A DNA stretch of 64,000 bases, taken from assembly GCF_032854445.1 (NCBI RefSeq), contig NC_088295.1:46489385-46553384 (forward strand), written 5' to 3'. Within the stretch, counting starts at the first letter, position 1. The number at the start of each line of letters is the position of its first letter. The position numbers and the translations under genes were made by a program. The DNA comes from Liolophura sinensis (Eukaryota > Mollusca > Polyplacophora > Chitonida > Chitonidae). The notes below the pieces were generated by a model, which was not told where the DNA came from, searched no databases, and saw only the letters and a program-made list of their open reading frames with translations. Below are positions 16,301 through 59,684 of the stretch, one piece after another.

Positions 16301-19300
16301 GTTAAGTGATTGATTATTCTTGGACTGTTATGTGGGAACGTTGAGATGACAGAAAATCTCTACAATGCTCTGCTTCTCAGTACATTCACCCCAATTTGCA
16401 TAGTTATTCACAAAAGGCCATGCGCCCCAGCCAATTTTTGTATAAAGCAGGCTTAAGCAAGCAAAAGAAATGTTGCATTTCTGTCAGATAAATTCTCAAC
16501 TTGAATGGATATTTATGGGAATTGACAGATACCTGTCTCACAAGTGTGAAAGTCCCATGCATAACTTGGCCAGTAGAGTGTCTGAATGAACTAAGGCCAT
16601 CAATAAAAATGTTTGTTAGCTTAACCCGACCAACTCTCCAAAAAAACGTCCAATTTTTTTTTGTTATTTGTCTCCCTGTCTCATAGCTGTTTGAAATCTT
16701 TATCTTTTTCATAAGCCATGATGAAAAAAAGAATTCCATATTGACTGACCTGTTTTTTGTGATTGGGTGTGGGTTATATGCCCAGCAGTTTATTTGTAAC
16801 ATTTGGTTTGAGTCATATGCCCAATAGTTTGTAAGATTGGGTTGGAGCTCATATGCCCAATAGTTTGTAAGATTGAGTTGGAGCTCATATGCCCAATAGT
16901 TTTTTGTAAGATTGGGTTGGAGCCCATATGCTCAATAGTTTTTTGTAAGATTGGGTTGGAGCTCATATGCCCAACAGTTTTTTGTAAGATTGGGTTGGAG
17001 CTCATATGCCCAATAGTTTTTTGTAAGATTGGGTTGAGCTCATATGCCCAACAGTTTTTTGTAAGATTGGGTTGGAGCTCATATGCCCAACACTTTTTTG
17101 TAAGAAATGTTCAGATACATGTGGAAGTCTGGTTTTGTAATGTGTGGAATTCCATTTATTTTGCTCAGTCGGTTAACACGCTAGCGCAGCGTAATAACCT
17201 AGGAGTCTCTCATCAATGTGCTCATTGTGAGTTCAAGTCCAGCTCATGCTGGCTTCCCCTCCGGCCGTACGTGGGAAGGTCTGACAGCAATCTGCGGATG
17301 GGCGTGGGTTTCCCCCGGGCTCTGCCCGGTTTCCTCCCACCATAATGCTGGCCGCCGTCGTATAAGTGAAATATTCTTGAGTATGGCGTAAAACACCAAT
17401 CAAATAAATAAATAAATATATCTATCTATTTTTGGTCATGCACATGCTGGAGTAAATTATCATGTAGCAGCAACCTTTATAAGCAAAAAGGGCTTTGTAA
17501 GATAAATGTTTTTAGACTAGCTTTTTTTGTTGTCATGTACAGCTATCTCTTTACATGTATGTCTGGGGATTTCTGAAAGACTTGGTATTTAAACCTTATT
17601 TATCATGGCTCATAGTAGTAAATTAACCTACCCCCTTAAAGCCCTTGGTGGAAATATCCCCTGTGTGTGATCGAAGGCCTTAATTCTTACAATGATCATC
17701 CCAGGAAGAGGATTCGTACTTACAAGTTATGGAATGAATATGGGCTGATGGGAAGGAGATTTATTTTTGCATGGCATTAAAGCTACGCTAGGCAAAAATA
17801 GTCCAGCAAAAATCAGCCCTTATTCATTTAATAACCAAATGAACATTTGATGCAAAAATTTAAGAGAGTACATCTTGTTGTAATATCAGTGGCTCCAGAA
17901 TTTGTCCAGTGAGAAAAGACGCAGTGTTATTTAATGGTGTCATGGGAAGGCCACGTTGCTAATGCCCGTGTGCATGGGGAATGTTGCTAATGACGACATG
18001 CAGTATGAAATATATGTACATACAGCGTGATTGCCACATCATTAAACATGGAAAACGTATAATAAGTCTTTATACATCACCTTGGGTAGACTAAACTGAA
18101 TGATCTCACAATTCATCTAGTTGTTTATTGATTTATTTGATTGATGATTTACTCCATACTGAAGAATATTTCACTTATACGACGACGGCCATCATTATAT
18201 ATAATGGTGGGAGGAAACCGAGAAGAGCCAGGGGGAAACAGATGACCATCCGCAGGTTTCTGGCAGCCCTTGCCACATATGTATGGAGATGTCTTCTACC
18301 AATATGGCTGGCATATATCACACATGACATAATGCATGAAATTAGATCTACAGAGAATTGTTCAGTAACTTTTCAACATGTGGGAGGTTTACACAGCCAC
18401 CTCCCCGTAGTTTCTCCCACCCAAAGTCAGTGGCCATAGTCATATATGTGAAACATTCTTGAATACATCATAAAACATCAAAATAAATACATAAATGTAC
18501 CTGCATGCCTTTGTGTCCAACATTTTAAATGATCCCTTATTACCAGAGATTATTGAAAGAAAGAGTGACCATTATTCAAAGAGGGAAACTTGGACTGTTG
18601 GCTCTTCCCACAGGACCTCTGGGAGGAAACATGAATGAGCATATGCAATTCCATTTTTTAACCATGAAGACAGTCAATAATACATCGATCACTACACACA
18701 TCAGCTGAAATTATCAATAAATAGACCAGTTTTTCAATGTAGTGGTTGAAATAATTTTTCATATATTGTGACCAGTGATGGTGCTGTTTTGAAATTGATT
18801 GTACAATCAAGATGAATCCATCAGTTTTTGCTATTTATTCACTCATTGACACACTTATCACAGATGGGCACACTTATCACAGATGGGCACACTTATCACG
18901 GACCCTCTGTTCTGTCTACAGGTGACCATCAGCACTGTGGAAGACAGCTCCCTGTTGATCTGGCCCATGGACGGCCTTGAGCACTTTCTGCGGGGTAATA
19001 TGTACCTGAGCACGGTGATCAACACCCTCGTCGGGAAGGACATCACCCACAAGATGTACCAGATCCAGGAGATGCTACTGAACCGCAGCCACGATGGGGT
19101 GCTGCACGAGCAGGTGCTGACCCATTGTCCCTCCTCCATCATGAACCTCCGTAGTAACATGGGTCGCTCTGGCTCAGAAGTAAGCCTTCCGCGGGTTCAC
19201 AGCCCTAATGAGGATTGTAAAGGTATGACAGTTAATGTGATGGTGAGCTTTGGCTTCCAGAAAACAGACTGTCAAATTTAGGGCTTAATTAACATGCTGA

Positions 19301-34565: not shown

Positions 34566-34828
34566 TTTTTTTTTTTTTTTTTTTTTTTGATTGGTGTTTT
34601 ACACCGTACTCAAGAATATTTCACTTATACGACGGCGGCCAGCATTATGGTGGGTGGAAACCGGGCAGAGCCCGGGGGAAACCCACGACCATCCGCAGGT
34701 TGCTGGCAAACCTTCCCACGTACGGCCGGAGAGGAAGGCAGCATGAGCTGGTCTTGAACTCACAGCGACCGCATTGGTGAGAGGCTTCTGGGTCATTACG
34801 CTGCGCTAGCGCGCTAACCGACTGAGCC
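34566..34828 (-). mobile_element. SINE family A, full-length and recent
   Basis: A complete reverse copy with an intact tRNA head, flanked by a perfect 12-bp target-site duplication AAAATACATGTA (34554-34565 and 34829-34840). The tail is a pure T-run on the plus strand, unlike the AAATAAATA tails of its relatives. Confidence 0.93.
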
Positions 34829-37939: not shown

Positions 37940-40900
37940 CTGAAAAGACAATCCACACCGTATCATGCCACATGTAGATCTGACATGACAAGAGTGCCAC
38001 TATTCAAATCATGAGATGTGGGAGAGTAGATAGAATATATATTATACAGCTGAAGGAATTTGCTCAACATCAAAATAAACAGTACAGTGTCAAACATATT
38101 GTAAAACTTCCACCTTTTCAACCACTAAAGCACTTTTTTTCAGATGAATTTATGCATACAATTATCATAAAAATGATGCTATTAAAACACGATTTGTTTG
38201 TGTCATTAAAGATGCAAGCTTCAGTCGATGTTGCGAGTTCAAATCCAGCTCACGTTGGCTTCAGTATATATCAGGAGGTTTCTCCGAAGGCACATTTTAC
38301 TTCTCCGAAGGCACATTTTACTTCATAAAATTCTGCAAATTGTTCCTCTACACCCTATTGTTCTTTCCGCATGTTTCAAAATATTGGTTGCAGAAGTTGT
38401 TGAAAAAGTTGAAGAATTAGGATAAATTGTGCAATGTCAAAGCCTTCAAGAACTGGACTTGAACAGCGCATCTCACTCAACGAGATGATACACTGATGTA
38501 GAATATTTCACCAGTCTAGAATATTTCACCTGTCTAGAATATTTCACCAGTCTAGAATATTTCACCTGTCTAGAATATTTCACCAGTCTAGAATATTTCA
38601 CCTGTCTAGAATATTTCACCAGTCTAGAATATTTCACCTGTCTAGAATATTTCACTTCTACAATACTTCAGGCTTCACAGGTCAAGGAACCCAGTGCCTT
38701 TACATAGCTGGTGAAAAACGGCTGCACTTTTCACCCTTCACATACCTGACAAACCTGGACACACCTACTGGCATGACTTCTGAGAAACCTCCTGATATAT
38801 ACTGAAGCCAATGTGAGCTGGATTTGAACTCTCAACATCGACTGTCTCGTGCTGGTTATCTGAACTCGGGCAACGTGGACTGCTCGACCACGGAGGACAC
38901 GGTTATGATAATGTTAACAGGACTTAACCTGAAGGTATACTATAAACTTTTTTTTATAAATTTCCCTTTTTTTCTTTCTAGAAGTGTTTAAAAAAGTGGC
39001 AGTTGTAACATCATTCTCTAAAATGCTAACAATCAACAAAACAGTTAAAACTGTCTTTTTTCAACTGTTTTGACGTTTTTAAACAGATTAGTTTTTGGTA
39101 AAAACAAAACATGAGTGTCACATACACAAAAACTTTCAATCTTCATTGTAAATTAATCAGTGACAAGTTAATCTGCCTTTAAACATTTTCACTGTGTTTA
39201 TTTATTTATTTCATTGGTGTTTTACACCATACTCAAGAATATTTCACTTATAAGAAAGCGACCAACATTATGGTGGGTGGCAAACATGCAGAACCTGGGG
39301 AAAACCCACAGCCATCCGCGATTTGCTGGTAGACCTTCCCACATACAGCTGGAGAGACTTTTAGTGAAATCACTTAGCAGTTATTATATACATGTATAAG
39401 TATATAGTACCTTAATCAGAATTTACCGTTCTTGAAAGACGTCTTACCTTTCAGGATTGGCTTTATCTTTTTTGTGTGACAGCATTTTGTATCTAGCCAC
39501 TTTTATTGGATAACGTATAATTTTATAGCCCTTTGCTACAATCCTGAAAGAAAATATCAGAAAAGGGAAATAGAAGATGTGGTGAATGGTTGGAGATTTG
39601 TGGGGTTTAAACCTCAGGGTAACATTATCCAATTATCATTTTGTATTAAAAGCAATATAACAACAAATCTACACTTTATTTATGTATCGGTTAGTTGTTT
39701 AATGCCAAACTCATCAATTTATCATTAATATAATGGCTGTCAGTTTTATGGGTGGAGGAAAATGAAGTGCCTGGGATAAACCACCGACTTTTGTCAAGTA
39801 ACTGACAAATTTACCAATGTGTGACATTCACATATGCACGCTGTACCGATGGAAATAAGTGAACAGTTAAGATTGTTCAAACGGCCCAAAGAGCACTGTC
39901 AACCGTTTATGGGGTCACTTAAGACCCCATCATGAATACATGTAATAAAAGCATGGGAATCAACGAATTCCCTGTCCAATTCCAGACTTGAACCCGTATC
40001 TCGTGTGTCCTTGTAATTGAAAGACTGTGGAACAAACTTCTCAGGGTGACATGTTTGGGTGTAGATCATTTTCTTAAACCAATGTATTTCAATGTATCTC
40101 ATTTTCAACAGCCATCTTTGATGAAACCTAAACTGCTGAAATGCAATCCACTACAAAAGAACAATAATTCATGTACGTCTACAAGTATATGGGGAGATTT
40201 TCCGGGTGATTCAAGCAGCCTTGAAGAGACAAATCAGCATAGTGTTCCTTTGATTTTAAAACTTTATCACTGAAAAACTACAGTGTATGCAGATGTTGCA
40301 TTTAACTGGTCAAGCAAGTGGATTTTAACAGTTACACACTTACCTATTGTGCATATCATCATCTTCTCCACCCCAGCCAAAAAACTTGTTTGAAAAACCA
40401 TTTACGTTTTTCATTTGATCTTTGGTCAATGCACTAACCCCTCCAAATATAGCCTCATAAGGTAGCCTGCAAACAGCAATGGTAGACATAAAGACTTTCT
40501 AAATCAAAAGTAGATTCAAACTTGGATAGTCATAGGAGGCCAAGCCAATTTACATCAAAGAACTGTACATGTACGTGAAAAACGCACGGTGTTAATCCAA
40601 AGGATTAAATCATTATGTGTGGAAGGTCAGTAATTCAGCCATTGTATGCTATCAACAGGTGTATTAAACAGATAGCAGATAACACATACCTATGTGACAC
40701 TTTCTTCTGGGAAAATAGCCATGTGAGTGTTGAAGTATAAAAAAAAAAAAAAAAATCCTAAAAAGTGTTTGCATGTGAACGTTGGCAGAATCAAAGAAAC
40801 ATCTCTGGTGTTAAGCTTTCTTGACTTTACCAGGTTCACCGTGTTATTACGAATTCAAAAATACACAAAACATTGTTGATATGGTTTTTACCGTTCGTTT

Positions 40901-43900
40901 ATGACATGACCTTCTGATGTCAATAATAACAGGGTGGAATGATTTCATTCCTTGAATTACTGTAATTCTTCAACCTTTTAGCATGTTTGCAAGGTGATTA
41001 TTTGAGGATACTCGATGGCATTATTCTGATGTAATCTGATAAAATTTTACTTTTCTTTCCAACCAATCCGAAGTTTTTGTCTCCAAAATAAAAACAAACA
41101 TGTGCATAAATAGCACTGAAAGTTGCTCTTTCATGTGTAAAAAGGTTGAGCAACAAAAGTAACACTATTTTGTGTTTTTTTTTTGTGAATGTTCATAGCG
41201 GAACACCCTGACTAGGAACAGCAGTTTATTACCTGTAGCCCATGGTGTCTACGGCAGCAGACATGTGCCTGGGCTGTTCAGGGCATGAATATATATTCCT
41301 CTCATCTTCTGGTATCAAATCCACATCGTGGAAAACAAAGCACTGGTAGTCATACAGCTTCAACGCTTCAACAAACCCAATGTTCATCAACATTGCTCTA
41401 TTGAACTTGGTTGGCATAGCCTGAAACAGAGCAAAGGATCGTTTAAAAGAAACCCAAATTCCACATGTTACACTTGTATGTACTGAACTTGGTTCTGTTG
41501 GCATTGCCTGAAACAGCAGAAACGATAATTTAATCGAAACCCAAATTCCATTACACATGTATGTAGTGAACTTGATTCTGTTGGCATTAACTGTTGACAT
41601 TGCCTGTTGATATTGCCTGTTGACATTGCCTGAAACAGCACGAAAGATCAATCTAACTTAAAAACTACTGCCATTACTAAACTTTATATTTTATTTGTAA
41701 GTGAACTTTTAAATATTGGTATTACCTTACACATCACCAAAACATTATTCCTCATTATTAAACACAACTGAATTCAACTTTGCCTGAAACTGCAGAAAAT
41801 AATTAGTCTATTTGACACAATTCTTAACTTCATTATCAAACTTAGTTCAGTAAAGTTTTGTTGGTGCTTCCTGAAAGAGTACAAGGAAAAACTGGCTCAT
41901 GCACATCGGCATTGCCTCAAGTCCTACCTTAAAAGAAAAAACATGTGCATGTACATGTCTCGTAACTACGCTTATTGATTTATAACGTTTCACTTATACG
42001 ACCGTGACCAGCATTATGGTGGGAGGAAACCGGGCAGAGCCCAGGGAAAACAAGTCCTGCTTTAAGAAACATACATGTGCATGTCTTGTGACTTGGATGA
42101 TTGATTTATAACATGGATATTACAACCATGGTTAAGATGAAAGCTAAGTGTATAACCATGACAACCACGATGTAAGTACAGCCATGTTACCTTTAATAAC
42201 CCCAAAGTGCTGCTTTGTTAGTTCTATGCCCTAGCTCACTTACGACTTATTGGCCCCTTTTATCCCTTCTATGCTCTTCATTATCTGTTCTATGCACTTC
42301 CTTGTCAGTTCTATGCACTTCAATATCAGTTCTAAGCACTTCAATATCTGTTCTATGCACTTCATTATCAGTTCTAAACACTTCATTATCAGTTCTAAGC
42401 ACTTCATTATCAGTTCTAAGCACTTCCATGCCAATTCTATGCACTTCCTTGTCAGTTCTATACCCCACTTTACCATCCTTGGCGTTCCTCAAGAGTTCTA
42501 TGCCCCATTACCAATCTTATGCCCACCCTTATCAGTTTTACATCCACCCTTACCATTTTTACACCCACCCTTACAGGCTTTGTGCTCACCCTTACCAGTT
42601 TTGTGCCTTCCCTTACCAGTTCTATGACATATATGCCATAATCCAGCTGTTGGTCTTGTAAAAACTTGTGCATGTGCTGCAGAAAGACTTTGAGATGAGC
42701 TTCTCGGTCTCTATATGGGATGATAATGGCAACACGATGACGAGACACACAGTCCTTGGGTTTCCATCGGCCACCAGGCAATAGATCGGGATAGTTAGCC
42801 TTTATTTCATCGTAGCTTTTTATGGATTTGTCCACAGACACTGCCCCACCTGATGTGAGAAAACAAGAAATATGCTGAATTCACTCTGATGACAGTCATA
42901 AATATGGCACACATTAAATATACAGCACTTTAAATCTTCTACAAACTCAATCACTTTTTTTAAGTTAGTTGAATTTATGCAAACAATTACCATGGAAACA
43001 ACACTAAAATTATTTTTTTTCTCAATTAATACACATGCTTCATTAAACTGTGCAAATTATATCTGTACAACCCATTGTTCTCTCAGAATGTGTCAAAATG
43101 TTGGTTGCATACGCGATTGAAAAGGCTGATTAATTAGGGTATGTAGCATTTACCTGTAATACAAATATGTAACAGCATATGTACATGTAACTGGTCTTCA
43201 ATCACCAAAGTCCTGGATCTAAATGTATGTCTACAATCACTTGCATGCCGTGTTTGCATGGCAAACCATGTCAACACATCAGCTTTCATGAATGTGCTAT
43301 TTATATAGACATGCATGTAGACTCTGCTACTGAACAAAACCGTACAAACAGATGATGAAATTTATATATATGATCAGTGTACATGATATAAGCTCTGCCA
43401 AGCCTTCAGTATGATCAATTCAGAAAATGACCTTTCAGGCATGGTATGCACACATTTTCTCCTTCAGAACAGGTAATATTGGAAAGCTTGCTGAAGGACA
43501 AATATTTGAATGCTTGATGTACATAACTTTAACTGTTGACTGCCAGGCTTCCTGCGACTGAAGGCCTCAGCATGAAGAGACAGCGAAGGAAACCTGGCAG
43601 AACCCTGGGGAAACCCATAACAATCTGCAGATTGCTGACAGGCCTTCCCATATAGGACGATAGGAAGGCAGCTTGACTTGAACTCATCGTGACCACATTG
43701 GAGGTTCTAGGATAATACATAAAGTATCCCCTACACGCAGAGTAAAATTTAAACCAGCATTTCTACTACATGTAGTATAGATACAAAATGCAGGTAGGAC
43801 CTATAGTACCAGTATAATCAAGATATATGTAAGTTTGACTTACGTAAATTTGGTGGTATAAAAGGACAAGCCTCGTCTTTCCTTGGTAAGCTGGCATTGG

Positions 43901-44165
43901 CATTTAGTGAGGGACTAGCTATGCCCAAACGGTCCTTGTGTCGCAACTGTCCGCTGACAATGAAGTCTCTAATGTCTACAAATTCTCCTGAAGAGTTCTG
44001 TTTACCAACAGGGGCAATTTTCGATGACACTAACACAGCCAAAGGATGGTAATACTGGTAAAAAATCGAACTGACACCAAACTGCAGGATGATCAGAATC
44101 ACCGTGGTGACAGCAGCAACCTTGAACACATTTTCTTTTGTGCACTTGGAGGTTTTCCCTGTCAT
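37768..44165 (-). CDS. beta-1,4-galactosyltransferase family (GT7) enzyme, probably beta4-GalNAc-transferase, 6 coding exons
   Basis: Minus-strand exons 44165-43844, 42849-42617, 41420-41233, 40466-40344, 39543-39448 and 37939-37768 join in phases 1, 0, 2, 2, 2 to 377 residues. It is a type II Golgi protein: cytoplasmic tail 1-12, one membrane anchor about 13-36, a stem with sequons (N57, N90), then the catalytic domain from about 100. Seen are AIIIPYRDRE (148-157), the DVD metal/donor motif (217-219), GWGGEDDD (278-285) with the loop Trp279, and M309-x-x-H312 as the other metal ligands. The four disulphide cysteines (C100, C141, C212, C231) are also kept, and numbering runs a constant 35 behind beta4GalT1 over the catalytic core. 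Ile254 replaces the vertebrate Tyr289 that restricts the donor to UDP-Gal. Invertebrate enzymes with Ile there make LacdiNAc from UDP-GalNAc, so that is the likely reaction; UDP-Gal or UDP-GlcNAc use is not excluded. ATG 44165 is the first in-frame ATG after a TAA at 44217-44219. Confidence 0.95.
38222..38844. repeat. 63-nt inverted repeat with ~500-nt loop
   Basis: Arms 38222-38284 and 38782-38844 are reverse complements with two mismatches. The arms contain a box-B-like GAGTTCAAATCCAGCTCA, so they are probably opposed fragments of one SINE family. Confidence 0.85.
38501..38655. repeat. 18-bp satellite in a 36-bp alternating array
   Basis: About nine units of TCTAGAATATTTCACC, alternating AG and TG at the junction, so the true repeat is 36 bp. 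Confidence 0.9.
39197..39358 (-). mobile_element. SINE family A, reverse fragment in GT7 intron 5
   Basis: Tail TTTATTTATTTATTTCATTG and core to CCTTCCCACATACAGCTGG; head missing. Confidence 0.8.
39448..39543 (-). CDS. GT7 gene coding exon 5
   Basis: Encodes IVAKGYKIIRYPIKVARYKMLSHKKDKANPE, carrying the metal ligands Met309 and His312 and the HxxDKxNPxR consensus. It is bounded by TTTCTTTCAG and GAAAG|GTAAGA. Confidence 0.94.
39675..40024 (-). mobile_element. SINE-like element, family E
   Basis: A tail-like TTTATTTATGTATCGGTTAG at the left and, at the right on the minus strand, a tRNA-like GGGTTCAAGTCTGG box B. It lies in GT7 intron 4, and I see only this copy. Confidence 0.5.
40344..40466 (-). 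CDS. GT7 gene coding exon 4
   Basis: Encodes LPYEAIFGGVSALTKDQ through GWGGEDDDMHN, the acceptor/donor loop and catalytic core of the family. Ile254 sits in PYEAIFGG. The borders TTTGCAG|GCTACC and AATAG|GTAAGT give phase 2 at both ends. It lies outside any long ORF and was found by homology. Confidence 0.95.
40959..41158. mobile_element. MITE-like element, CTGTAATTCTTCAAC family, copy 1
   Basis: ACTGTAATTCTTCAACC at one end and AAAAAGGTTGAGCAA at the other, about 200 bp, in GT7 intron 3. The interior is shared with copies at 46263, 49472 and 50441. Confidence 0.7.
41233..41420 (-). CDS. GT7 gene coding exon 3
   Basis: Starts after CTCTGTTTCAG with AMPTKFNRAMLMNIGF and contains the metal-binding DVDLIPEDERN and the C212/C231 pair; ends GGCTACAG|GTAATA in phase 2. 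The frame stays open upstream through copies of the acceptor, so the exon start rests on homology (vertebrate AGDTIFNRAKLLNVGF). Confidence 0.93.
41421..41910 (-). repeat. Degenerate repeats of the exon 3 acceptor junction
   Basis: Copies of the TGTTTCAG|GC acceptor occur with exon starts at 41420 (true), 41507 and 41629, with more decayed versions near 41785, 41870 and 41910. A 15-bp sub-repeat (TGCCTGTTGACAT) lies at 41590-41630. The first two copies share about 40 nt of intron before the AG. Confidence 0.75.
41967..42053 (-). mobile_element. SINE family A core fragment in GT7 intron 2
   Basis: CACTTATACGACCGTGACCA through AAACCGGGCAGAGCCCAGGG; no head or full tail. Confidence 0.75.
42249..42616 (-). 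repeat. 21-bp tandem repeat carrying splice-donor copies
   Basis: About 17 units of 21 nt. The four nearest exon 2 keep an intact GT donor, with exon ends at 42617, 42596, 42575 and 42554. Farther units have GATAAT or GACAAG in place of GGTAAG. Because 21 is a multiple of three the frame stays open across the array. Confidence 0.85.
42617..42849 (-). CDS. GT7 gene coding exon 2
   Basis: Starts after TTTTCTCACATCAG and encodes residues 109-185, including DCVSRHRVAIIIPYRDREAH and QQLDYGIYVIEL, the nucleotide-sugar-binding start of the catalytic domain. It ends GAACTG|GTAAGG in phase 0. The donor is the first of a 21-bp tandem series of similar sites. Confidence 0.95.
42935..43140. repeat. Dispersed repeat shared with 38125-38430
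   Basis: Blocks GAATTTATGCA, AAATT..., CCCATTGTTCT and AAAATGTTGGTTGCA occur in the same order in both places. The 38125 copy is interrupted by the SINE fragment of the inverted repeat. Confidence 0.55.
43585..43710 (-). mobile_element. SINE family A, reverse fragment in GT7 intron 1
   Basis: GGAAACCTGGCAGAACCCTG, CTGCAGATTGCTGACAGGCC and a degenerate head CTTGAACTCATCGTGACC. Confidence 0.7.
43844..44165 (-). CDS. GT7 gene coding exon 1
   Basis: Encodes the tail, membrane anchor (VFKVAAVTTVILIILQFGVS), stem and CPFIPPNL with the first conserved cysteine (C100). It ends AATTTAC|GTAAGT in phase 1. The frame is open upstream to 44210 but holds no ATG there. Confidence 0.93.
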
Positions 44166-46516: not shown

Positions 46517-46668
46517 TAATTTATCTATTTATTTGATTGGTGTTTTATGCCGTACTCAGGAATATTTCACTTATACGACGTCAACCAGCATTACGGTGGA
46601 AAGAAACCGGGCAGAGCACAGGGAAAACCCATGACCATCCACAAGTTGCTGACAGGCCTTCCTACATA
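46517..46668 (-). mobile_element. SINE family A, reverse fragment
   Basis: TTTATCTATTTATTTGATTG tail, core to GACAGGCCTTCC; head missing. Confidence 0.8.
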
Positions 46669-57149: not shown

Positions 57150-57448
57150 GTTTCAGGCACTACATACATGTACAGATTTATACACTTCATTTCTTCCTCA
57201 GTTTGTGGATCTGTGGGTGATCTTGGGGGATCGTGCGAGCAATCTTTGATAAAGTTTTGGGTGGGATATGTAGAACTTGTTTTCAGAATTTCAAAAGACC
57301 TGTCCATGCAATTCTGTACATGTATAAGTACATCAGAATGTACCTGTATTTTTGTTTTCATTTCCACTAGGTACTATCAGGTATATGTTCAGGAGTGCTG
57401 TCCAAGTATACAAGAACAGACATGTACATTCAGTACATTTATCTAAAA

Positions 57449-58750
57449 TTTATGAGAATAAGTTGAAGAAATAGGGTGTCCCTGAACTTTCATTCCGAGT
57501 GAGTCAACAGGTGTACAACTGAAAATATTAAATCATTCATTTAACAATATTGAAAAATTTTTGAGAATAAGTTGAAGAAATAAGGTGTCTTTGAACTTTC
57601 ATTCCGAGTGAATCAATAGGTGTACAACTGAAAATATTAAATCATTCATCTAACAATAATGAAAAATTTTTGAGAATAAGTTGAAGAAATAGGTTGTCTC
57701 TGAACTTTCATTCCGAGTGAATCAATAGGTGTACAACTGAAAATATTAAATCATTCATCTAACAATATTAAAAAATTTTTGAGAATAAGTTGAAGAAATA
57801 GGTTGTCTCTGAACTTTCATTCCACATGAATCAACAGGTGTACAACTGAAAATATTAAATCATTCATCTAACAATGACAAATTTATGAGAATAAGTTGAA
57901 GAAAAAGGGTGTCTCTGAACTTTCATGCCGAGTCAATCAATAGGTGTACAACTGAAAATATTAAATCATTCATCTAACAATATCGACAAATTTTTGGGAA
58001 TAAGTTGAAGAAATAGGGTGTCTCTGAAGTTTCATGCCGAGTCAATCAATAGGTGTACAACTGAAAATATTAAATCATTCATCTAACAATATCGACAAAT
58101 TTTTGAGAATAAGTTGAAGAAATAGGGTGTCTTTGAACTTTCATGCTGAGTGAATCAATAGGTGTACAACTGAAAATATTAAATCATTCATCTAACAATA
58201 TTGACAAATTTTTGAGAATAAGTTGAAGAAATAGGTTGTCTCTGAACTTTCATTCCGAGTCAATCAACAGGTGTACAACTGAAAATATTAAATCATTCAT
58301 CTAACAATATTGACAAATTTTTGAGAATAAGTTGAAGAAATAGGGTGTCTCTGAACTTTCATTCCGAGTCAATCAACAGGTGTACAACTGAAAATATTAA
58401 ATCCTTCATCTAACAATATTGACAAATTTTTGAGAATAAGTTGAAGAAATAGGGTGTCTCTGAACTTTCATTCCGAGTGAATCAACAGGTGTACAACTGA
58501 AAATATTAAATCCTTCATCTAACAATATTGACAAATTTTTGAGAATAAGTTGAAGAAATAGGGTGTCTCTGAACTTTCATTCCGAGTGAATCAACAGGTG
58601 TACAACTGAAAATATTAAATCCTTCATCTAACAATATTGACAAATTTTTGAGAATAAGTTGAAGAAATAGGGTGTCTCTGAACTTTCATTCCACGTGAAT
58701 CAATAGGTGTACAACTGAAAATATTAAATCATTCATCTAACAATATTGAC
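57449..58750. repeat. 110-bp satellite, 12 copies
   Basis: Each unit runs GAGAATAAGTTGAAGAAATA, GGGTGTCTCTGAACTTTCAT, TCCGAGTGAATCAACAGGTG, TACAACTGAAAATATTAAAT, CATTCATCTAACAATATTGA, CAAATTTTTG. The copies are mostly a few percent apart and neighbours share variants (ATGCCGAGTC, ATCCTTCATC), as expected from local unequal exchange. No ORF spans it. Confidence 0.95.
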
Positions 58751-59684
58751 ATGCACATTAGCTTTGAGATATGATGGCCTGCTTGACTATGTTCCCAGCT
58801 TAACTTCCATATTAACCGCTCTTAAATGTTAGATTCACAAACCTGAAACACGGTCCTGCCACCAGTACTGTCCTGGAAAGTGTCAAAGCTGTATGACAAA
58901 AAAAACCCCAGATATCTCATGATCTTTACGTAATTCTGAACTCGCATCACCTCGTTATGCAGGAATAATAAAGACAAGAACATTGCAATGAATATAAATC
59001 TAACCAACACGTCTGCTTAGACAGCATCCTACCTTTGCAAACCCAAATTTTCAAATCATGTGCCTATCCTTATCTTCTTGCAAAAATTATGATCTACTTT
59101 TTCCACAATTGTTGCTTACTGTATAGTTACTGTTCATTATTAAAACAAATATTAATGCTGAGACTCCCAAAGTAGTTGTCAGTCGAGATTTTAATGTACA
59201 CATGGAAAATGGCAGTTAGCGAAGTTTCCCTTCCCTTGTGCTTGATGCGGTACATTTGTGTGAATTGTGACTTTACTCTGCAAGAATAAATTGATACGAA
59301 GCCAGAATTACCATAGGGTTAAAGGGAACATGCTCTCACTGCACACAACATGACATGATGATGAGAGCATACTTTAACAGGCCGAGTTTGAGTTTAGTGA
59401 CCTCTGAAAGCTGGCAACGTTAAAACACATCTCAGATCTAGCATGTATTTCAGAAGGCTACATAACAACTTGATACATGTAAGTAAGGAAGGGGAAGAGA
59501 GGAGGACTTGTAGCAGTGTAGCCTGCAAATGGAAACTGAGAATGACATACCATCCCATTCCAAATTCATGATTCCAGACTTACTATTTTCAGTCAGCTGC
59601 TTTAGATGCCAAAACTTGGAATAACTCAGGTTTCCATGCATGTAGTTTAAATACAAAGTAACTGACCTAAAATTTTGTTTGTGA

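Follow-up and report, generated by a model that had tools for sequence, protein, structure and literature searches.

Tandem copies of splice junctions in an intron of a galactosyltransferase-like gene, and at other exon boundaries, of the chiton Liolophura sinensis

How does a gene keep its splicing in order when one of its introns repeats the signals by which that intron is recognized? The question is raised by a 64,000-nucleotide stretch of the Liolophura sinensis genome (the window, in whose numbering all positions below are given unless a locus is named), on the minus strand of which about half of intron 2 of a beta-1,4-galactosyltransferase-like gene is made up of clear tandem copies of that intron's own two junctions, the donor as well as the acceptor. 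An earlier, sequence-only reading of the window had described the donor copies and had offered two interpretations, namely a source of graded protein isoforms and a set of decoys to be disregarded by the spliceosome. The explanation favoured here, to which we give a probability of roughly three in four, is that the minisatellite is of the 'mirage' type known from amphioxus, that it grew from the junction itself, and that it is tolerated because the exon-proximal donor at 42617 is probably the one chosen.

The gene and its canonical splice sites

The gene belongs to the GT7 family, with both PF13733 and PF02709 above gathering score in a Pfam profile scan (Table 1). Exon 1 has a hydrophobic stretch close to its start, as judged by eye, and gave zero Pfam families above cut-off in the Pfam scan. 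When exons 2 and 3 are joined, they align with human B4GALT1 (6fwu) over 123 residues without a gap at the junction, where YGIYVIEL/AMPTKFNRA stands opposite YGIYVINQAGDTIFNRA (a slash marks a splice boundary throughout). Because of this gap-free junction, 42617 is the canonical donor and 41420 the canonical acceptor.

Table 1. Features of the galactosyltransferase-like gene and of the repeats in its second intron (window positions)
Feature	Position	Strand	Description
Exon 1	43844..44165	minus	ATG at 44165; 107 codons + 1 nt; from ORF, donor AC/GTAAGT, phase fits exon 2
Exon 2, end YGIYVIEL/	42617..42849	minus	PF13733 92.9 bits; aligned to human B4GALT1 6fwu
Intron 2	41421..42616	minus	1196 nt
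Donor array, near block	42508..42621	minus	21-bp units; TRF period 21 x5.4
Donor array, far block	42260..42461	minus	21-bp units, 63-bp higher order; TRF period 21 x9.6, 63 x3.2
Further acceptor-like copies	41578..41870	minus	Exon-like starts 41629 (out of frame), weaker 41783, 41870
Acceptor-side 87-bp repeat	41410..41588	minus	Polypyrimidine tract + AG + exon-3 start; TRF period 87 x2.1
Exon 3, start /AMPTKFNRA, end GY(R)	41233..41420	minus	PF13733 73.1 bits; no gap versus human B4GALT1
Exon 4 (LPYEAIFGGVSALT...GWGGEDDDMHN)	40344..40466	minus	PF02709 73.4 bits; ends read by eye

Intron 2 lies at a position that is common to family members of the same genome, at both junctions in one of them (L004) and at the start of exon 3 in another (L003). 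The L004 intron, 394 nt long and at the same position, has 0 matches to the junction 21-mer of the window gene at 14/21 and lacks junction copies at both ends, and in L003, where the sequence compared begins 796 nt upstream of exon 3 and thus concerns the acceptor side only, acceptor copies are absent. Intron gain by tandem duplication was considered and rejected, since the shared position shows that the intron is not new.

Copies of both junctions within intron 2

The 21-mer that spans the end of exon 2 and the donor, CATAGAACTG/GTAAGGGAAGG, recurs in the form of degenerate 21-bp copies, with 14 places in the first 368 nt of the intron matching at 14 or more of 21 positions, whereas 2000 dinucleotide shuffles averaged 0.20 such places and never exceeded 3. 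The proposal that the exon end and its donor are repeated into the intron with a 21-nt period was therefore right, in its coordinates as well as its copies. The last 10-mer of exon 2 occurs nine times at 9/10 or better (shuffle mean 0.03, maximum 1), and only the last three of the 224 10-mers of the exon recur at all (1, 2 and 9 times), so that homology ends at about the last 10 exon bases. The match to exon 2 coincides exactly with the exon end, and homology to human B4GALT1 imposes a constraint on this exon. That the array derives from the splice junction, as the sequence-only reading had also proposed, is borne out by this exact coincidence with the constrained exon end and by the copy-free intron of L004.

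The donor copies form two blocks, between which the register slips. In the near block, in-register donors follow the exon ends 42617, 42596, 42575, 42554 and 42512 (the last as TTG/GTAATG), and 42533 has AT and no GT. The near units from 42596 to 42512 mostly retain GTAAGG and have drifted in their exon part; the far units, from 42453 on, largely retain ATAGAACTG and have AT, AC or GC in place of GT. The earlier description, in which GT survives in the first four units and is lost from the distant ones, needs three corrections, for the fifth in-register GT at 42512, for the drift of the exon part in the near units as against its better preservation in the far ones, and for the slip of register between the blocks. 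Near and far units resemble the real junction about alike, at 13-15 of 21 positions, and the array is thus not fresh.

Several of the surviving donors remain consensus-like. Scored with mammalian frequencies, they reach 10.2 bits at 42617, 10.2 at 42596, 6.5 at 42575, 9.4 at 42554 and 3.4 at 42512. Since 42596 and 42617 carry an identical full 9-mer, CTGGTAAGG, local donor strength does not argue against the use of 42596. The frame that enters from exon 2 stays open until a stop at 42470-42472, and the donors 42596 and 42554, as well as the weaker 42575 and 42512, are all in frame.

Copies of the acceptor, which are additional to the donor array of the earlier reading, occupy the other end of the intron. 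The copied unit consists of the acceptor and the first ~22-48 nt of exon 3, and the 87-bp repeat that contains it (112 nt at 80 % identity by blastn) supplies an extra acceptor at 41507, which is in frame and open, would add 29 residues, and scores equal to the canonical 41420 (4.9 bits each). A 13-bp sub-array detected by TRF at 41578-41632 lies within the further acceptor-like copies. The exon part of the acceptor copies is statistically less certain, 10 of 2000 Markov resamples having reached its local score, although no windows within exons 1-3 are conspicuous except those in the first part of exon 3.

Two other repeats were seen in passing. In mid-intron, 41988-42051 is the 64-bp core of a repeat that is dispersed and SINE-like. 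About 10 more copies of it are present in the window (17308-17371, 34619-34682 and 46565-46628 among them), and an imperfect direct repeat of 69 nt (41918-41986 and 42051-42112) flanks it here. Outside the gene, 57446-58751 is a 109-bp tandem array of 12 copies with 95 % identity.

Junction arrays elsewhere in the genome

The chiton genome was published under the name Liolophura japonica, for which L. sinensis was substituted in a correction (PMC12441733); the assembly searched comprises 632 contigs and 609,464,459 bases. The sample consisted of 181 exon matches from four protein families, cut so as to leave flanks of 400 nt: kinesin (89 of 132 listed), Cpn60_TCP1 (32 of 50), myosin head (48 of 81) and GT7C (12 of 20, one locus being exon 4 of the window gene). 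For GT7C, and for the first 30 kinesin loci, the matches with the highest scores were taken; the remainder were chosen manually, largely among the leading entries of the lists, and many, though not all, of the overlapping or stop-rich matches were left out. A copy was called by blastn at E 0.001, the minimum being 8 exon and 5 intron nt for donors and 7 exon and 6 intron nt for acceptors.

The rule alone found arrays of the own junction at 10/151 called donors and 1/155 called acceptors (Fisher 0.005). After hand checks, the figures were 9/150 donors and 2/155 acceptors (Fisher 0.033, or 0.018 with L066, a weak case in which TRF counts 2.4 copies and the any-site rule yields a single blast copy). 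The donors that stand are L032, L048, L069, L086, L094, L096, L127, L134 and L171; the acceptors are L019, which the best-site acceptor rule missed and the any-site rule added, and, with some doubt, L140, which shares 9 exon bases only and has an uncertain exon start. TRF, run separately, spans nine donors (the same set without L134 and with L066) together with the acceptors L019 and L140, and wrong-side controls gave 1/151 donors (L024) and 0/155 acceptors. Among the first 141 exons, 9/119 donors, L066 included, stood against 2/120 acceptors (Fisher 0.034; 0.059 at 8/119, without L066), and an earlier pass over 37 loci had found copies at 1/25 donors and 0/25 acceptors. L086 and L094 are close neighbours that seem to belong to one gene, and not every case is therefore independent.

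Several candidates from the automatic calls were dropped by eye, namely L043, in which the real donor (MQG/GTAAGT) lies upstream of the array; L145, in which the profile match ran through stops; exon 4 of L004, in which the array begins 3 nt past the donor and is without an exon part; and L126, L146, L140 as a donor, and L104 and L165 as acceptors. L143, which is used in some counts below, is outside the 181 and was chosen for a listed 1339-aa open frame that proved to contain stops.

The window array is therefore not a one-off, as the same architecture is present at other genes of the genome. The kinesin exon of L032 (end NESETKSTLMFGQR) is followed by 20 donor copies, the first at 68 nt and then one every ~73, of which the nearest two are identical over the 26 positions compared. 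The units that follow the myosin exon of L171 (end GYPTRLPFQTFLDR) carry ~100 nt of exon, those of L096 carry up to 93 nt of conserved coding sequence, and the kinesin exon of L019 (start EAMSINKSL) has a 64-bp array upstream of it. Side observations concern three of the loci. In L032:1605-3168, exon end and donor occur about 21 times with a 73-bp period; in L171:1-995, three or more repeats of high identity each comprise ~100 nt of exon plus the donor, so that every unit resembles a partial spare exon; and L086:1-992 is a chaperonin donor array of 66-bp period whose five copies are all in frame and open. No other sampled array is as good a candidate as L086 for giving real length isoforms.

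A bias of junction arrays towards donors is likely, on few cases of which two are apparently in one gene. On the exon side, tandem arrays cover 5.9 % of the last 20 bases before donors versus 0.9 % of the first 20 after acceptors, and, in the 20 adjoining intron bases, 6.8 % at donors versus 1.8 % at acceptors. Since several percent of the sampled boundaries carry arrays, the splicing machinery must often choose among near-identical copies.

Are the copies used?

The strongest alternative to the mirage-type reading is that the near copies do function as donors in their own right, like those of human IFI6, so that the enzyme would come in isoforms graded by +7, +14 and +21 residues (and by +29 with 41507). 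The earlier claim that no stop intervenes and that such insertions are possible was sound, given the open frame and ten tested donor/acceptor combinations that are all stop-free; moreover, four downstream GT donors are in register and in frame, one of them with the identical 9-mer, and two downstream units of IFI6 are reported to be used (PMC4526556). Nonetheless, we regard this alternative as improbable. Of the five forms scanned with PF13733, the canonical splice, 42617 to 41420, scores highest (175.8 bits), and the insertions cut the score by 8 to 13 bits, to 167.4 (+7), 162.8 (+14), 162.7 (+21) and 164.1 (+29). They also adjoin the conserved FNRA, at a junction where all three of the B4GALT1 chains shown are gap-free. 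The insertion point is just before FNRA, and the analysis gives no ground for equating this site with an acceptor-sugar loop, next to which the earlier reading had placed it.

The comparison with other arrays bears on the same issue. Outside the window, 64 copies are contained in ten arrays (L032, L048, L066, L069, L086, L094, L096, L127, L134 and L143, without L171), and 29 of these copies have a score that differs from that of the canonical donor by no more than 2 bits. Only 5/64, all of them in L086, combine a GT with a preserved frame and no earlier stop, so that in-frame open copies occur in just one of ten comparable arrays and the copies in most of these genes, 59/64 being unusable in frame, must be ignored. 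Functional graded isoforms are accordingly possible in the window gene but unlikely as the array's purpose, and, between the two interpretations offered by the sequence-only reading, the decoy array is the better fit.

GT is retained in 64/69 copies of nine other arrays (L143 included), a count in which six of the 11 matches of L127 are secondary half-unit matches and whose 26-nt threshold missed the window's own GT units 42575 and 42554. Because GT is kept at this rate although the copies are mostly unusable in frame, GT-bearing decoys appear to be tolerated. For the same reason, selection against decoys is unsupported as a rule for the loss of GT from the far units, and that loss looks like an effect of age or of a loss in one founder unit. 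Selection on frame was also considered. Periods divisible by three characterize six of ten donor arrays (that of the window plus nine from elsewhere, without L171), which is not significant (one-sided binomial 0.077); together with the open frames of the near donor copies and of 41507, this leans slightly towards frame mattering.

Origin of the arrays

That an unrelated 21-bp minisatellite of the intron spread, or drifted, into likeness with the donor is very unlikely. Tandem arrays are common enough in this genome, covering 13-15 % of the bases 100-360 nt past sampled donors, but chance likeness does not account for nine near-perfect copies of the exon 10-mer when only the final three of the exon's 10-mers recur, and, as regards other genes, the long coding segment copied in L096 cannot have arisen by convergence. 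An assembly or sequencing artefact is scarcely credible, although tandem arrays are a known source of assembly error, given HiFi reads (mean 8,347 bp, 14X, according to PMC11068029) that far exceed the 368-nt array, units that differ among themselves, and a single match of the locus in the genome assembly.

Under the mirage-type explanation, short stretches across the exon-intron boundary were tandemly duplicated into the intron, as 21-bp units at the donor and as units of ~87 bp at the acceptor, probably via slippage or unequal exchange, and the far block may have descended from a unit that was already without GT. The exon-proximal donor at 42617, being transcribed first, would be used in most or all transcripts; homology, the other arrays and the reports on amphioxus mirages all point to its use alone or nearly so. 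If 42596 or 42554 were used now and then, the protein would gain 7 or 21 residues, respectively, and no stop would be met. The copies are presumably tolerated and not selected, and donors may tolerate copies downstream of them since the canonical donor is transcribed first. More tentatively, and with the odds somewhat against it, junction amplification may be a genome-wide and donor-biased process that affects ~6 % of conserved donors, the bias arising since splice sites are committed in the order of transcription: copies downstream of a donor would come too late, whereas copies upstream of an acceptor would come first and hence be purged.

Comparison with known boundary minisatellites

The papers found that treat mirages, minisatellites and splicing together concern amphioxus globins and lancelet/vertebrate PGBD5. 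Amphioxus mirages, found in Adh3, troponin C, the globins BflGb6/BflGb9 and PGBD5, are minisatellite-like boundary duplications at either intron end, whose copies often retain splice signals; in the available text of the two reports, splicing is described as normal and the phenomenon as possibly general there (PMC3087553, PMC3902484). Like these, the chiton repeats span the exon-intron boundary, in this case at both ends of intron 2, and their unit holds true exon sequence and a splice signal (the last 10 nt of exon 2 plus the donor). Unlike them, the chiton case is in a mollusc, has been surveyed across 181 exons from four protein families, affects one intron at both ends and donors more than acceptors, and is known from genome sequence alone.

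The minisatellite of human IFI6 (6-16) has a unit of 12 nt. Its tandem units provide donors at the exon end (Turri et al. 1995, via PMC4526556), and two downstream units serve as donors, according to the available text of PMC4526556. Both systems thus have tandem donor units at an exon end, with different unit lengths and in unrelated genes; however, the downstream donors of IFI6 are used, whereas those of the chiton are consensus-like candidate donors. In human segmental-duplication genes, variable minisatellites with an average unit of 30 bp lie at exon-intron boundaries and accompany novel introns (PMC2812944, available text). Those are recent paralogs with new introns, whereas the chiton intron has an older position, common to a family member, and intron gain was not seen. 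Similarly, potato RdRp gained an intron by tandem genomic duplication, as far as the available text of PMC4974935 goes; both cases involve tandem duplication in a coding gene, but the potato gene gains a new intron and the chiton gene expands an existing one. Minisatellite introns also occur in earthworm (PMC12783039) and abalone (PMC6905558) genes, splice-junction arrays not being described in the available text of these papers. A limited full-text search, which covered few subscription journals, showed no mollusc or polyplacophoran report of junction arrays among the titles and abstract openings listed. Boundary minisatellites are thus already known from amphioxus and human genes, and there is weak evidence, in that no earlier report was found, that their occurrence in a mollusc had not been described.

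Significance

Constructs are the usual means of studying which of several equally strong donors the spliceosome takes. The chiton arrays are natural cases, in which conserved genes (those of kinesin, myosin and chaperonin subunits among them) hold as many as 20 repeats of one donor and its flanking exon, mostly at places where the wrong choice of donor would wreck the protein. If confirmed with RNA, they would show how strongly position decides the choice of donor; they would also place junction amplification of the amphioxus type in molluscs, as a route for the growth of introns and the multiplication of splice sites. If the reading based on the order of transcription is true, the arrays would be a natural series, of up to ~20 near-identical donors, that tests this rule in vivo.
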